Shown: piece by piece, positions 37,919-45,453 of the stretch | Layout of the letters: each line of letters begins with the position of its first letter | Position numbering within the stretch: position 1 is the stretch's first letter | Source of the DNA: Marinifilum sp. D737 | GTDB taxonomy: Bacteria; Bacteroidota; Bacteroidia; Bacteroidales; Marinifilaceae | NCBI RefSeq assembly: GCF_026672275.1 | Contig: NZ_JANQCD010000034.1 | Coordinates: forward strand, 1-45,453 | Reading direction: 5' to 3' | DNA length: 45,453 nucleotides | The notes under the pieces: generated by a model | Told to the model about the DNA's origin: nothing | What the model saw: only the letters and a program-made list of their open reading frames with translations | Databases searched by the model: none | Program-made: the position numbers and the translations under genes

Positions 37919-39406
37919 ATGAATCAGAAGTACATTTGGTTAGTTACGATTGTTTTGTGTATATCATTGTTTGGATTGATATTGGTCCAAATAAAATACT
38001 TTCAATCTGCATCAAAACTTAAAGAAGAACAATTTGCTTTAACCGTTAGCAAAGCTTTAGATCAAGTTGTTAAAAAGTTGGAACATGATGAAAAATGGCA
38101 TTCTATCGTAAAGGGGAATGGCACGAATAGCTCTGGTACTTCCGGACAAACTTCCATCATAAATGAAAGTTCCAAGTTTACCTATACCATGGATCCAAAA
38201 CACGATATGTTGACCTTTAGTATTTCTCATGAGAACAAAAATATTAATATCGCTTCAGGACCATTAAAATCAGGTGGATTAGCAAATTTTCAGCAGCAAT
38301 TCAATAAAGCCCTAAAAAATAGTGGGGGTAATATTGGTCAATTTGCATCCAAACTAAGAAATGAAAATTTAAAACTAAACGATCGTATTGATCTTAAGGA
38401 ACTTCCAAAACTAATAAAGCAAATACTGCGAGATAATGGTATTAATTTAAATTTCGAATATGCCGTCAAAGTAAACAATATCAAATTTGAAACTGCATCG
38501 AAAAATTACTTTAGGAATCCATCGGTCATCAGGTATACAAAATTAATGTTTCCAAATGATGTTTTTGCCAGTTCAAATGTTTTACACATTTATTTTCCTG
38601 GCCAACAAAAGCATATGATTCAATACACCATGCTGTTTCCTTCATTTATTCTTACATTGGTATTGATACTTTGCAGTGCTTTTACAATTTTCATCATCTT
38701 CCGCCAAAAAAAATTGTCGAAAATCAAAAACGATTTTATCAACAATATGACTCACGAGTTTAAAACTCCGATTTCAACAATATCATTGGCATCACAAATG
38801 TTGAAAGACAATAGTGTTGCAACCACACAAAGCTTTATCGATCATATTGCAAAAATCATTAACGATGAAAGTAAACGATTAACTTACCAGGTTGAAAAAG
38901 TATTGCAAATGGCAGTATTTAATGAAGCCAGAATGAAGTTAAAGTTGAAACCTATAAGTGTTCATAAAATAATTCAAAATTTATTACCTAACTTTACTAT
39001 TAGAGCAGAAGATAAAAGTGGTAACATGTATCAAAATTTAGACGCCAGCCAGGATACAATTATGGCGGACGAGGTTCATGTTAGCAATGTTATCTCAAAC
39101 CTGTTGGACAATGCAATTAAATATTGCAAGGACAATCCGGAAATCAGTATCAGTACCAGAAACAAAGACAAGGGTATTGTTATTTCGATTACTGATAATG
39201 GCATTGGAATATCGAAAGAAGATCAGAAAATGGTTTTCGAGCGCTTTTTCCGTGTTCATACAGGCAACGTGCACGATGTAAAAGGATTTGGCTTGGGCTT
39301 ATCCTATGTGAAGAAAGTTGTTGATGCACACAATGGTGAAGTAAATGTAGACAGTGTTCTCGAAAAGGGATCCAAATTTGAAGTATATCTTCCTTTAAAA
39401 AAATAG
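37919..39406 (+). CDS. Membrane sensor histidine kinase
   Basis: The 495-residue protein has membrane helices at about 7-27 and 238-261 enclosing a ~210-residue periplasmic sensor domain with no recognised fold. After a short linker without a clear HAMP domain comes the H box MTHEFKTPIS with phospho-acceptor His279, then N box NVISNLLDNAIKYC, G1 DNGIGIS, F box FERFFRV and G2 GFGLGLSYV. It probably phosphorylates the response regulator 5 bp downstream. The signal is unknown. Confidence 0.93.
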   Translation: MNQKYIWLVTIVLCISLFGLILVQIKYFQSASKLKEEQFALTVSKALDQVVKKLEHDEKWHSIVKGNGTNSSGTSGQTSIINESSKFTYTMDPKHDMLTFSISHENKNINIASGPLKSGGLANFQQQFNKALKNSGGNIGQFASKLRNENLKLNDRIDLKELPKLIKQILRDNGINLNFEYAVKVNNIKFETASKNYFRNPSVIRYTKLMFPNDVFASSNVLHIYFPGQQKHMIQYTMLFPSFILTLVLILCSAFTIFIIFRQKKLSKIKNDFINNMTHEFKTPISTISLASQMLKDNSVATTQSFIDHIAKIINDESKRLTYQVEKVLQMAVFNEARMKLKLKPISVHKIIQNLLPNFTIRAEDKSGNMYQNLDASQDTIMADEVHVSNVISNLLDNAIKYCKDNPEISISTRNKDKGIVISITDNGIGISKEDQKMVFERFFRVHTGNVHDVKGFGLGLSYVKKVVDAHNGEVNVDSVLEKGSKFEVYLPLKK

Positions 39407-39411
39407 ACGCA

Positions 39412-40098
39412 ATGGAACAAGTTAAAATCTTATTAGCCGAGGATGATGCGAATCTAGGCCTTTTGCTTAAAGAATATTTAATCGCTAAAAATTATAACAC
39501 TACTCTTTGCGAAGATGGTGACAAAGCTTACGATGAGTTCTTGAAGAATCCATACGACCTGTGCATTTTTGATATCATGATGCCTCATCGGGATGGTTTT
39601 ACACTTGCAAAGGATATTCGTTTAATCAATAGCGAAATTCCAATTATCTTTCTTACTGCAAAATCGATGAAAGAAGATGTTCTGGAAGGTTTCAAACTTG
39701 GTGCTGATGATTATATGACCAAGCCATTTAGTATGGAAGAACTTTTGGTAAGAATAGAAGCTGTATTGAGACGAACTTCGGGAGTAAAACCTGAAAACAA
39801 CCAGGAAGAATTTAAATTGGGTCGTTATACTTTCGATGCTAAAAAGCAATATTTGGTTGATGGAGATGAAACCATTAAACTAACAACCAAAGAATCGGAA
39901 CTTTTAAAGCTACTTTGCAACAATGTAAATAAGGTATTGGAGCGAAACCTGGCATTAAAAACCATTTGGTCCGACGATAATTATTTCAATGCGCGTAGTA
40001 TGGATGTTTACATTACAAAACTTCGTAAACACTTAAAGGAAGAGCCAAGCATCGAAATTATAAACGTTCACGGTAAAGGTTATAAACTGATAATGTAA
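39412..40098 (+). CDS. OmpR-family response regulator
   Basis: The 228-residue regulator has a receiver domain (1-120) with acidic pocket Glu10-Asp11-Asp12, phosphorylated Asp54 (FDIMMP), Thr82 and Lys104, and a winged-helix DNA-binding domain (about 130-228; KLTTKESELLKLLCNN, RSMDVYITKLRKHLK, INVHGKGYKLIM). It is cotranscribed with the kinase and ends at a strong terminator. Confidence 0.95.
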   Translation: MEQVKILLAEDDANLGLLLKEYLIAKNYNTTLCEDGDKAYDEFLKNPYDLCIFDIMMPHRDGFTLAKDIRLINSEIPIIFLTAKSMKEDVLEGFKLGADDYMTKPFSMEELLVRIEAVLRRTSGVKPENNQEEFKLGRYTFDAKKQYLVDGDETIKLTTKESELLKLLCNNVNKVLERNLALKTIWSDDNYFNARSMDVYITKLRKHLKEEPSIEIINVHGKGYKLIM

Positions 40099-42933: not shown

Positions 42934-42952
42934 TGTCAATTACGAATTACGA

Positions 42953-42970
42953 TCCCGATAGCTATCGGGA
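42953..42970. repeat. 18-bp perfect palindrome in lepA leader
   Basis: TCCCGATAG/CTATCGGGA, the same class as 6347-6364. It sits in the ~90-nt leader of lepA, 20 bp before the ATG, flanked by AATTACGAATTACGAT-type sequence. Confidence 0.75.
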
Positions 42971-43027
42971 ATAAATTACCAATTAGAAGTTACAAATTAC
43001 GAAAGTTTTATCCCGATTCGTAATTCG

Positions 43028-43057
43028 CAAATATAAATTCCTAATTGAATCCGCAAA
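43028..43057 (-). promoter_or_regulatory. lepA promoter
   Basis: Minus strand: TTTG at 43054-43057, 18-bp spacer, TATATTTG at 43028-43035. Both elements match consensus exactly. It separates lepA from the upstream peptide locus. Confidence 0.75.
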
Positions 43058-43119
43058 GATATTTAATTCCTTGGACTTTGGAAAGTTGAATTGCGAAATC
43101 GCATCGAAGAAATTGGGAA

Positions 43120-43350
43120 TTAAGAAAATGTGATGATTCCCAGCAAAAAAAGTAGCAACTTGAAGTCTGCAAGCAGCATGACAAGCATGAAAAATGCATT
43201 CTCTTCTCGTTCTTTAAGAAGGTAGTAAATATTTTATCGAGCCATCCACACCCCCAAGAACTCACCCATTTCGAAAACCTGCATGCCTACAATGGTCATC
43301 AATGCAAATAAACAGGTCAACTCTTCCTTGCTCAATTTTATTCTCTTCAT
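43120..43350 (-). pseudogene. Small two-helix membrane protein with an in-frame stop
   Basis: An ATG at 43350 opens a 38-codon frame beginning MKRIKLSKEEL and ending EFLGVWMAR at a TAA (43234-43236). The same frame continues for 37 more codons (NIYYLLKEREENAFFML onward, hydrophobic, to a stop at 43120-43122) with typical protein-like composition. Joined, the two parts would give a ~76-residue protein with two membrane helices. The simplest reading is a recent nonsense mutation; a functional 38-residue peptide is the alternative. It begins 6 bp after the preceding two-helix gene. Confidence 0.5.
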
Positions 43351-43356
43351 CGTATT

Positions 43357-43542
43357 CTAAATTTTAAATTTCTTTTTTAAGGTTCTTCCGATAAGCAACA
43401 AGCCTATTCCAATACCATTGCATAACAATCCCATTATTAAATACAAAGGATCTGCACCTGCCAATATTCTTGTGATTAGGTATAAACCTATAAAGAAAAG
43501 AAGAGTTGACAGAATAAGTATAATTGTAGAAAATTCCTTCAT
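43357..43542 (-). CDS. Small two-helix membrane protein, possible immunity factor
   Basis: From the ATG at 43542 the 61-residue protein has two helices (about 5-25 and 33-52) separated by RILAGADP and ends in the basic tail TLKKKFKI. A frame from further upstream adds 33 residues but would require a third helix and an unlikely start. Function is unknown. In the context of two double-glycine-leader peptides upstream on the same strand, a role as immunity protein is a reasonable guess only. Confidence 0.55.
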   Translation of the reverse strand: MKEFSTIILILSTLLFFIGLYLITRILAGADPLYLIMGLLCNGIGIGLLLIGRTLKKKFKI

Positions 43543-43647
43543 AACGTAATATGTGTTAAATATACTAATTCTTTTTAGTATACCATTCATACCGCTCAAC
43601 AGAATAATAATTAATAACGATAATTTAAAATAAATTGCCACTTTATT

Positions 43648-44088
43648 CTAAGTGAGAATCACATTTACTGCTAATATACAAGCAAATAAGCCTGAACTTA
43701 AATTATCTAATTTATCCATTTTACAACTTTTGAAGAAAGAGCTACTCCTTGTGAAGAAACCCACAGGAAGGTTTAATGGTCTTAATATTGAATTATACAG
43801 GTTAGATATCAACCAAATTTTCAATTTGATAAAAATAAAATGCCACAAAATCATGCCTATTAGGGGTGCCATAATATCGTAAATATCAAAATTTCGTCCT
43901 GCTTTAAAAAGATCATATTCCATTAGAATAATTGAAACGATACTTATGAAAAAAAACCAAACTACATTTAACTTAGGGTAAAGAAATCGCAATGTTATTG
44001 GAAAAATAAGTCCAATATCTAAAAGACATGTTTTTTTCGATACAAAAGGTGTATTAAAATAATTGCTATAACTGTAAGAAACGTGCAA
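43648..44088 (-). CDS. VanZ-like membrane protein or fragment
   Basis: The open frame is 146 residues and overlaps the end of the CPBP gene by 70 bp. Two hydrophobic segments surround the segment EYDLFKAGRNFDIYDIMAPLIG, which resembles the C-terminal half of VanZ-like domains (G-R-x-FDxxDxxAxxxG). The usual N-terminal helices are missing and the last 50 residues do not look domain-like, so it is either truncated or starts inside the CPBP gene at an unidentified site. AT-rich like its neighbours. Confidence 0.4.
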   Translation of the reverse strand: MHVSYSYSNYFNTPFVSKKTCLLDIGLIFPITLRFLYPKLNVVWFFFISIVSIILMEYDLFKAGRNFDIYDIMAPLIGMILWHFIFIKLKIWLISNLYNSILRPLNLPVGFFTRSSSFFKSCKMDKLDNLSSGLFACILAVNVILT

Positions 44089-44879
44089 AGTATTGATCCT
44101 TCGAAGCCAAAATCACCACCATTAAAGATATTTTTTACAGATATATCAAAAGTAACAAAGGAATTGATATTTATCCCACTCACATTATAATCAAATACAC
44201 AAGCTTGAATAAAATTCCAAAACAAATGTAAACTAATAGGATACCAGATATTTTTGGTATAAATATATGTACTGCCTAAAAGAATCCCTGCCAATACAAG
44301 ATTAAGAATACTCAACCAATTTAGATTATCATTGAAGCTATGAAGTAATGCAAATATGCAGGATGTTATTATTAATGCCCATTTTTTATTCATAGTATCC
44401 ATCAGATTATTAAGAATATAACCTCTACATAATACTTCCTCTCCTAAAGATATTGTTGCAAAAAGAAGAATTCCATAAATAAAATCACTTCTATCAAAAT
44501 CAATAGAAATAATGCTAATTTGATTAAATACCACTAGTATTACAGTGCCAAAACATATAATAAAAATAGCTGTAAGTCCTCCCAATACAATATCCTTAAC
44601 TTTATTTGTTAATGAAAAGCCCATTGAGACAATACTCTTTAAATCAGCACATCTACGAAATACAAATACTACTAATAAAGTACCGATTAATCCAATCCCT
44701 TGACAAATAAAATTTTGCTTTAAAGATAAATTCTGAGGTTGAGAAAAATTATTTAGATTACCATCAACGATTAAATATCCGAATAAACCAAAAAGGCCAC
44801 TAACAAACACATAGCTTATTAAGATTAGGATTATTCTTACTCCTATGGGAAGAATTGGAATGGGTTTATTGTTTGTCAT
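44019..44879 (-). CDS. CPBP-family intramembrane protease
   Basis: The 286-residue protein has about eight membrane helices. The CPBP/Abi catalytic motifs are visible: motif 1 EEVLCRG with Glu147, Glu148 and Arg152; motif 2 FALLH with His180; motif 3 HLFWN with His218 and Asn222. The family includes Rce1-like CAAX proteases and bacterial members that confer immunity to, or mature, bacteriocins and peptide pheromones. Here it follows two double-glycine-leader peptide genes by 68 bp on the same strand, which points to such a role. The gene is AT-richer, with more ATA and AAT codons than the housekeeping genes, a possible sign of transfer. Confidence 0.88.
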   Translation of the reverse strand: MTNNKPIPILPIGVRIILILISYVFVSGLFGLFGYLIVDGNLNNFSQPQNLSLKQNFICQGIGLIGTLLVVFVFRRCADLKSIVSMGFSLTNKVKDIVLGGLTAIFIICFGTVILVVFNQISIISIDFDRSDFIYGILLFATISLGEEVLCRGYILNNLMDTMNKKWALIITSCIFALLHSFNDNLNWLSILNLVLAGILLGSTYIYTKNIWYPISLHLFWNFIQACVFDYNVSGININSFVTFDISVKNIFNGGDFGFEGSILCTFLTVIAIILIHLLYRKKHVF

Positions 44880-44901
44880 CTATTTTCATTTGTAAAGTAT
44901 T

Positions 44902-44938
44902 CTTCTATCCCAAAAAACTTGTGTTGTTGGGATAGAAG
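44902..44938 (-). other. Inverted repeat between peptide genes and CPBP gene
   Basis: CTTCTATCCCAA and TTGGGATAGAAG form a perfect 12-bp stem with a 13-nt loop. On the minus strand the stem is followed by AATACTTTAC, not a clean T run, so it may be a partial terminator or an RNA-stability or processing element that sets a high peptide:protease ratio. Confidence 0.65.
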
Positions 44939-44947
44939 AAATTTATA

Positions 44948-45106
44948 TTATTTACTTCCCATCATATCCCATGGTGCATGTGAATTGTGCTTCCCATAGT
45001 GATAATTATTACTTACAAAAAAACCAAGGAATTCAGCCATCCAACCTCCTCCATTAATTGATTTTAATTCTCGTTTAGATAGGTCTTTTATTTTTTTAGA
45101 TTTCAT
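44948..45106 (-). CDS. Double-glycine-leader peptide (His/Trp/Tyr-rich)
   Basis: The 52-codon gene encodes a basic leader ending LSKRELKSINGG (residues 9-20), with Glu-Leu at -8/-7, Ile at -4 and Gly-Gly at -2/-1, the standard C39-peptidase recognition pattern. The predicted mature part is 32 residues, begins GWMAEFLGFF and is rich in Asn, His, Tyr and Trp, ending APWDMMGSK. No Cys, so no lanthionine or disulfide. It starts 18 bp after the first peptide gene. Bacteriocin- or signal-like role inferred from leader and context. Confidence 0.72.
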   Translation of the reverse strand: MKSKKIKDLSKRELKSINGGGWMAEFLGFFVSNNYHYGKHNSHAPWDMMGSK

Positions 45107-45124
45107 AATTTTAATTTTTAGTGT

Positions 45125-45304
45125 TTATTGATAATAATTGGCAGCTGAATCCCATCCACTTTTATAATCATCAGGATTATTTTGAGCATCATTAATACAC
45201 GCTCCAATAAACAAGGCTAAAGATAACCATACTAGTCCTCCATCAGTGCCTTTTAATTCCTTAGCATCCATTTCAAGAACGCCGTACTTTTCTAACTTTT
45301 TCAT
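45125..45304 (-). CDS. Double-glycine-leader peptide (first of pair)
   Basis: From the ATG at 45304 the 59-residue precursor has the leader MKKLEKYGVLEMDAKELKG then TDGG, with Glu-Leu at -8/-7 and Gly-Gly at -2/-1. The predicted 36-residue mature peptide has a hydrophobic start (LVWLSLALFIGACI) and an acidic, aromatic tail (DDYKSGWDSAANYYQ), with one Cys. This pattern is frequent among Bacteroidota bacteriocin-like peptides. Most upstream gene of the locus within the window. I found no consensus promoter in the ~150 bp before it. Confidence 0.78.
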   Translation of the reverse strand: MKKLEKYGVLEMDAKELKGTDGGLVWLSLALFIGACINDAQNNPDDYKSGWDSAANYYQ

Positions 45305-45453
45305 ATTCACAAAATTTTAAATTGTTTATTAAATCAATTAATTTTGTGCAGGCTTTTAAGCTAAGTCCGATGAACAGCATGGGTTCTCCAAAACACTTCT
45401 GTTTTTCGGGCTTTTTAACCTACACTTTATATATTCGCATTGGCCAAATTTGA
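45305..45453. other. Upstream region of the peptide locus, window edge
   Basis: No gene seen. It contains AT-rich sequence next to the first peptide ATG and a short AAAACA/TGTTTT inverted repeat near 45394-45415. No exact TAnnTTTG box was found on the minus strand. The window ends here, so the exporter or promoter may lie beyond. Confidence 0.4.

Follow-up and report, generated by a model that had tools for sequence, protein, structure and literature searches.

Two-peptide bacteriocins of class IIb, of the plantaricin EF and JK type, are encoded by two adjacent, unlike precursors with double-glycine (GG) leaders, together with a C39 exporter, an adaptor and a CPBP-type putative immunity protein. 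In the sections of PMC8538875 used here, CPBP/Abi-like proteins are described as the immunity of such two-peptide systems. The pneumococcal blp locus, according to the available portion of PMC6422914, is found in all strains with highly variable GG peptides and Abi proteins, is regulated by a pheromone system within the locus (BlpC/BlpRH) and has no functional transporter in some strains. Within the Bacteroidota, the bacteroidetocins are GG-leader peptide toxins with an ABC exporter that carries a double-glycine peptidase domain. As defined in the accessible part of PMC6671954, they are single peptides with at least two cysteines beside an exporter and a transmembrane (TM) protein gene, usually with a thiol oxidoreductase and with no obvious immunity gene.

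The locus described here lies in Marinifilum sp. D737, at one end of a stretch of 45,453 nucleotides that was analysed as a whole and is referred to as the window. As in class IIb systems, it contains two adjacent, different GG precursors (P1 and P2), a pair that was also observed in three other genomes, and a dedicated C39 exporter with an accessory protein, which is located on a second contig (C79) placed by synteny and whose HlyD gene is in two frames. It differs from class IIb, as covered in the same sections of PMC8538875, in belonging to the Bacteroidota, in peptides that do not exceed the cut-offs of curated bacteriocin families, and in an HTH protein with a GG-like tail adjoining the exporter. 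Variable GG peptides, an Abi-type protein and a transport machinery that may be impaired are comparable to blp, whereas blp belongs to an unrelated phylum and has its own pheromone regulation (PMC6422914, same portion). The definition of bacteroidetocins in PMC6671954, in the part available, does not describe this locus, which encodes two peptides with at most one cysteine each, plus a CPBP gene. We favour a class-IIb-like two-peptide bacteriocin with CPBP immunity, at a probability of roughly 0.68. As part of this explanation, the segment 43648-45453 would represent the variable cargo of a locus for GG-peptide export whose place is fixed, with lepA on one side and a conserved cluster of genes on the other.

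The contig ends at position 45453, which is also the right edge of the window. Read from right to left on the minus strand, the genes are P1, P2, the CPBP gene, a VanZ-like frame, a 61-aa protein, a 38-aa frame and lepA. A previous reading of the sequence alone had named the same CPBP, VanZ-like, 61-aa and 38-aa frames, and all of them were found. P1 (45125-45304, minus strand, 59 aa) has a leader of 23 aa ending in KELKGTDGG and a predicted mature peptide of 36 aa, while P2 (44948-45106, minus strand, 52 aa) has a leader of 20 aa ending in ELKSINGG and a predicted mature peptide of 32 aa. The predicted mature parts are dissimilar; P1 contains one cysteine and P2 none. A filter for leader-shaped ORFs retrieved P1 and P2 and no others from the 45-kb window, and the same filter applied to 40 dinucleotide shuffles of the whole window yielded a mean of 0.05 ORFs and a maximum of 1. 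Furthermore, two leader-type ORFs appeared in none of 300 shuffles of the region 42941-45453, which substantiates the earlier claim of two adjacent minus-strand GG precursor genes.

Comparison of the two precursors with NCBIfam bacteriocin models gave only matches below the cut-offs. For instance, the leader regions of both resemble TIGR03949 (lactobin A/cerein 7B), with scores of 17.0 bits for P2 and 14.2 bits for P1 under a cut-off of 21.5 bits, and the leader region of P2 resembles NF047798 (leader_Chryseo), again below the cut-off. By eye, P1 has an A-xxx-G pattern (ALFIG) that may serve as a GxxxG-like helix motif; P2 has no GxxxG, which is present in its relatives at three other loci (L069-L071). 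P1 had no match in a plasmid collection, and its alignment (A3) had none among viral contigs. A phage or plasmid origin of P1 is therefore unsupported by the plasmid and viral-contig collections searched.

In a genome collection covering 84,980 species, four relatives of P1 were identified, in a Flavobacteriales MAG, in Psychroflexus and in two uncultured Tenacibaculum. The first three (L069, L070 and L071) contain the mature P1 core INDAQNNPDD..G, and in each of them the P1-type gene is directly adjoined by a P2-like gene with the motif GGGW[ML]A..LG, so that the cores of P1 and P2 (GW[ML]A..LG) are each common to these three genomes. With the window included, the exact P1 core occurs at four loci, each of which has a P2-like neighbour. 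The window has the two genes in the order P1-P2, and the other three loci have them in the order P2-P1. In the fourth relative, from Tenacibaculum, the likeness by eye lies mainly in the leader. The proposal of a two-peptide system, made earlier from the unlikeness of the mature parts, is thus strengthened by three other genomes in which the unlike genes again lie side by side.

Across a sample of 395 genomes of the phylum, 8 matched the P1 profile, and the mature part was matched only in G000 (the present genome) and G399, which makes the P1 core rare; in G399, the core sits in frames without a GG leader. An iterative profile of mature P1 recruited 8 of 124 cargo peptides, and one further locus (L156) contains a P1-like peptide with no partner listed. 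Synonymous changes in the P1 core ranged from 0 to 6 of 30 bases, a count that follows from choosing identical residues and is no measure of selection. Additionally, two small frames (L070:8219-8383 and L149:9315-9476) were observed with a P1-like core (INDAQNHP.D) and a hydrophobic N-terminus replacing the GG leader. Such frames may encode mimics of P1 that act as immunity proteins or decoys.

The CPBP gene (44019-44879, minus strand) encodes a 286-aa intramembrane protease of the Rce1/Abi type, which is a candidate immunity protein. It matches PF02517 with 78 bits (E 6.9e-22) against a gathering cut-off of 22.4, and the motifs EEVLCR, FALLH and HLFWN, read by eye as EExxxR, FxxxH and HxxxN, are all intact, in agreement with the sequence-only reading. 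That reading had also suggested looking for conserved co-occurrence of CPBP proteins with the precursors, and PF02517 genes do recur beside GG precursors in eight other loci. These came from scans of proteins picked by eye, in which 3 of 7 membrane proteins (L069, L071, L063) and 5 of 8 proteins (L149, L145, L077, L079, L093) matched. At the P1/P2 loci themselves, the CPBP gene directly follows the pair in L071 (PF02517 E 2.6e-9) and lies one gene beyond it in L069 (E 6.9e-10); no CPBP gene was seen by eye at the Psychroflexus locus. Against this recurrence beside GG precursors, seen also at two of the other three loci with the P1/P2 pair, stands the reading of the CPBP protein as a housekeeping membrane protease located by chance behind two GG genes. 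Its closest relative (58% identity, G020) has no adjoining GG gene among the frames listed, and family relatives are located elsewhere, with a GG precursor beside none of the 14 CPBP places inspected out of 29. We regard such a chance neighbourhood as improbable and retain the CPBP protein as a probable partner of the peptides, with an immunity role suggested by the genomic association.

The VanZ-like frame (43648-44088, minus strand, with the fragment at 43648..44018) lacks its N-terminal half and covers positions 61-123 of the 126 positions of the profile. It misses the cut-off of the VanZ family PF04892 (16 bits against a gathering score of 30.1, E 0.019), and its sole in-frame start between the CPBP stop and the ATG at 43923 is a TTG at 43992. 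Given the partial profile match and this single alternative start, the frame looks like a fragment; the earlier description as VanZ-like holds for the presence of the frame, which is truncated and under the Pfam cut-off. The fragment weakly resembles a protein near the P1/P2 pair in L071 (E 2.4e-4) and a protein adjoining GG genes in L065 (E 0.015), and VanZ-like proteins may represent a second partner type of GG loci.

The 61-aa two-helix membrane protein (43357-43542, minus strand) is nested in a 94-aa frame with a GTG start. It is kept in two congeners, G003 (46% identity, E 1.6e-13) and G001 (E 4.9e-9), which have no GG genes at this place. The protein is therefore a resident neighbour outside the cassette, and what varies is the GG segment. 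Its previous assignment as a partner within the peptide locus was mistaken, as it belongs to the chromosomal neighbourhood. The 38-aa frame (43234-43350, minus strand) had no match in Pfam or NCBIfam.

The statement that the exporter is absent was correct for the window, since the contig stops at 45453. In the rest of the genome, four C39 places were found with PF03412. One of them is at the left end of contig C79, which carries a C39 exporter, an HlyD gene and an HTH gene. The exporter is encoded in a 709-aa frame that runs to the contig end, contains DCGAACL and scores 133.4 bits against PF03412. In the congener G002, lepA is followed by two GG precursors, a C39 exporter, HlyD and HTH, and then by the same gene as on C79. 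The same order was observed in two other genera (G023 and G009) with different cargo. Moreover, in all three genomes the spacer that follows the stop of the exporter gene can be aligned with the right end of the window, and counting on this alignment leaves about 90 bases between the end of the window and the end of C79. On the basis of synteny and spacer likeness across an unbridged gap, C79 appears to adjoin the right end of the window, which places both the C39 ABC transporter and the HlyD adaptor where the sequence-only reading had advised searching.

The HlyD gene on C79 (L037:2175-3310) is divided into two frames of 189 and 181 aa, compared with a protein of 380 aa in relatives, and the two pieces are 93% and 90% identical to the intact protein of G002. 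Either decay or a sequencing error would account for the split. In view of the two frames, secretion may be off in this genome unless the split reflects an error of sequencing or the exporter works with a different adaptor. The split gene, the truncated VanZ-like frame and the 38-aa frame without a family match are what a decaying remnant, formerly an active cassette and now non-functional in this genome, would leave behind. This explanation appears unlikely to us, given that the frames of P1, P2, CPBP, the exporter (709 aa to the contig end) and HTH are intact and that the genome contains two further ABC-length C39 frames, whose exporters might substitute. Contigs C56 (L038:5075-10389) and C35 (L039:6032-13112) each carry another C39 exporter locus that has GG precursors of its own; in the C35 locus, a second C39 place is found in a 514-aa frame, and an HlyD-like gene was identified by eye.

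Returning to the bacteriocin interpretation, comparison within the family revealed a constant machinery with changing cargo. Over 701-720 positions, the exporters of six genomes (G000, G002, G023, G009, G025 and G004) show 90-96% identity to each other, and the HTH proteins beside the exporter share 43-90% identity among the five compared. In contrast, eight in-frame mature cargo peptides from six genomes match each other only over 4-15 residues; a ninth, from G025, was read out of frame and is not counted. In G025, one GG precursor and a CPBP gene lie behind the exporter, and in G004, GG precursors and a CPBP gene are located upstream of lepA with the exporter on a different contig. Among frames of at least 40 aa, the congeners G001 and G003 have no GG gene and no exporter between lepA and the next cluster. 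The nearly constant exporter, the short matches between mature peptides and the two congeners without either element identify a swappable-cargo locus, in which the cargo is replaced while the exporter stays. The filter that lists cargo peptides selects for leaders, and the cargo lists are hence no independent proof of the leader.

The P1 and P2 genes themselves were absent from close relatives. Among 56 family genomes, P2 matched only itself and, weakly, one sequence of its own genome that contains stops (E 0.064), while P1 had matches at E ≤0.1 in five genomes. The best non-self match was a cargo peptide of G023, with 32% identity over the whole precursors (E 1.2e-4) and mature parts that do not match.

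The spacer between the exporter gene on the next contig and the first GG gene (45305..45453, minus strand) is strongly conserved in five family genomes despite their different cargo genes, and it ends with an AT-rich inverted repeat immediately ahead of the start codon. It may serve as an operator, as a promoter or at the RNA level, and the stretch 45307-45453 occurs only once in the genome. A structured RNA is not claimed here, since the folding of the last 91 bases was barely above that of shuffled sequences (z -0.9 to -1.6) and two-sided pair changes were found in 0 of 38 predicted pairs with four sequences and in 1 of 27 with five. Rfam returned two matches on 44800-45453 far under the gathering scores (E 0.34 and 0.7).

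Outside the window, C79 encodes a winged-HTH protein (C79:3378-3707 in L037; HTH_11 E 1.6e-6) with a C-terminal GG-leader-like segment followed by a short tail. The GG is invariant in the six HTH proteins first compared. Alignment A7 consists of rows picked for GG, and the invariant GG within it is by construction. A profile search of 295 genomes of the order gave HTH matches in 41, and 60 regions around the hits, excluding the own genome, yielded 64 HTH ORFs from 57 of the regions. The GG tail was found in 21 of these 64. Of the 46 ORFs with enough flank, 17 have a C39 gene within 5 kb, and 11 of them carry the tail, versus 4 of the 29 others (Fisher p 7.7e-4); the other 18 ORFs, six of them tailed, were set aside (contig end at less than 3 kb, no C39 seen). 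Where an HTH gene lies no more than 500 bases from a C39 gene, which is so in five cases, it always carries the tail. In an overlapping set of 30 short loci, 8 combine an ABC match with an HTH ORF, and 7 of these have the tail. In this order-level set, CPBP genes lie within 5 kb of 4 of the 21 GG-tail HTH genes versus none of the 43 others (Fisher p 0.009; three of the four belonged to the training set of the profile). With just these 4 of 21, CPBP is one among several partner types of GG-tail HTH loci.

The residues preceding the GG follow the register of a leader. A strict pattern (hydrophobic at -12; E, D or Q at -8) was observed in 19 of the 21 tails versus 1.4 expected from shuffling the residues preceding GG, and a hydrophobic residue at -4 in 16 of 21 versus 7.0 expected from the same shuffling. 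The tail after GG mostly comprises 12-40 residues. Within the family, the GG is present in six exporter-adjoining HTH genes (G000, G002, G009, G023, G025 and G004:C126) and absent from the HTH proteins encoded in G055 and on contig C487 in G004, where no exporter lies within the stretch read. At the level of the phylum, 82 of 395 genomes match the HTH profile, many through long proteins that share just the HTH part. Among 29 phylum loci with short flanks, 20 match an exporter or HlyD; the tail was found in 13 of these versus 2 of the other 9 (p 0.05), and in four of the seven tail-less loci with exporter or HlyD, AG replaces GG by eye. Many of the phylum HTH loci have two adjoining GG precursors, as listed by the leader filter. 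Two related observations come from G004: a partial GG-tailed HTH end near lepA with GD replacing GG (L063:2258-2416), and a similar intact HTH end with an exporter (L148:3695-4012) on a contig other than that of lepA.

NCBIfam leader models gave three weak matches among ten GG-tailed HTH proteins, none over the cut-off. An AlphaFold model of the Tenacibaculum HTH protein, made from two sequences, has a wHTH-like order of elements at a mean pLDDT of 67.7, with values below 50 in the last residues, and is not used as proof. We know of no GG-tailed HTH protein in blp. Limited open-access full-text searches returned no description of such a regulator, and the portion of PMC8939145 available describes none. 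From the register and the association with C39 genes, the regulator seems to carry the recognition tag of the exporter itself. We tentatively propose, at somewhat less than even odds, a secretion-coupled transcription factor, widespread in the Bacteroidota as a class, in which the C39 exporter would bind and cut its own GG-tailed regulator. The transcription of the swappable toxin cassettes could then be set by the load of cargo, by the occupancy of the exporter or by the tail peptide once released.

GG leaders are also used by pheromones, and the sequence-only reading had left open whether this locus beside lepA serves peptide secretion and immunity or signalling. If P1 and P2 were pheromone signals, the CPBP protein would process the peptide or its receptor, and the response would come from a regulator within the locus or from a two-component system nearby. 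The HTH gene within the same locus, a histidine kinase paired with a response regulator on the far side of lepA (window 37919-40098) and a weak BlpC-type NCBIfam match of P2 (13.4 versus 70 bits) are consistent with this. However, a response regulator lies beside lepA in G009 (L067) despite other cargo, which makes the kinase/regulator pair look resident, and the turnover of cargo between genera at a constant exporter, often as unlike pairs with membrane partners, is typical of an arms race between toxin and immunity. The general assignment as a peptide locus is supported, and signalling is given a low probability relative to a bacteriocin.

In the bacteriocin interpretation, the neighbouring C39 ABC exporter would recognise P1 and P2 by their GG leaders, cut them after GG with its C39 domain and export them together with the HlyD adaptor. 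The products of 36 and 32 residues would act together as a toxin on bacteria related to the producer, probably in the form of membrane-active helices, and the CPBP protein would protect the producer. Exchange would affect the cargo and leave the exporter, the adaptor, the regulator and the spacer in place. In this genome, we infer the adjacency across the contig gap, cleavage, secretion, killing and immunity from the DNA.

The locus combines a swappable two-peptide cargo, a CPBP partner and a GG-tailed regulator, and its part within the window belongs to a known kind. If this explanation is true, a search between the constant exporter and the next resident gene would reveal many peptide toxins of the Bacteroidota. 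It would also define a type of locus distinct from the bacteroidetocins, described in the available part of PMC6671954 as single peptides without an obvious immunity gene. The GG-tailed regulator would further allow exporter-to-promoter reporting to be tested directly, by asking whether the exporter cuts its own regulator.
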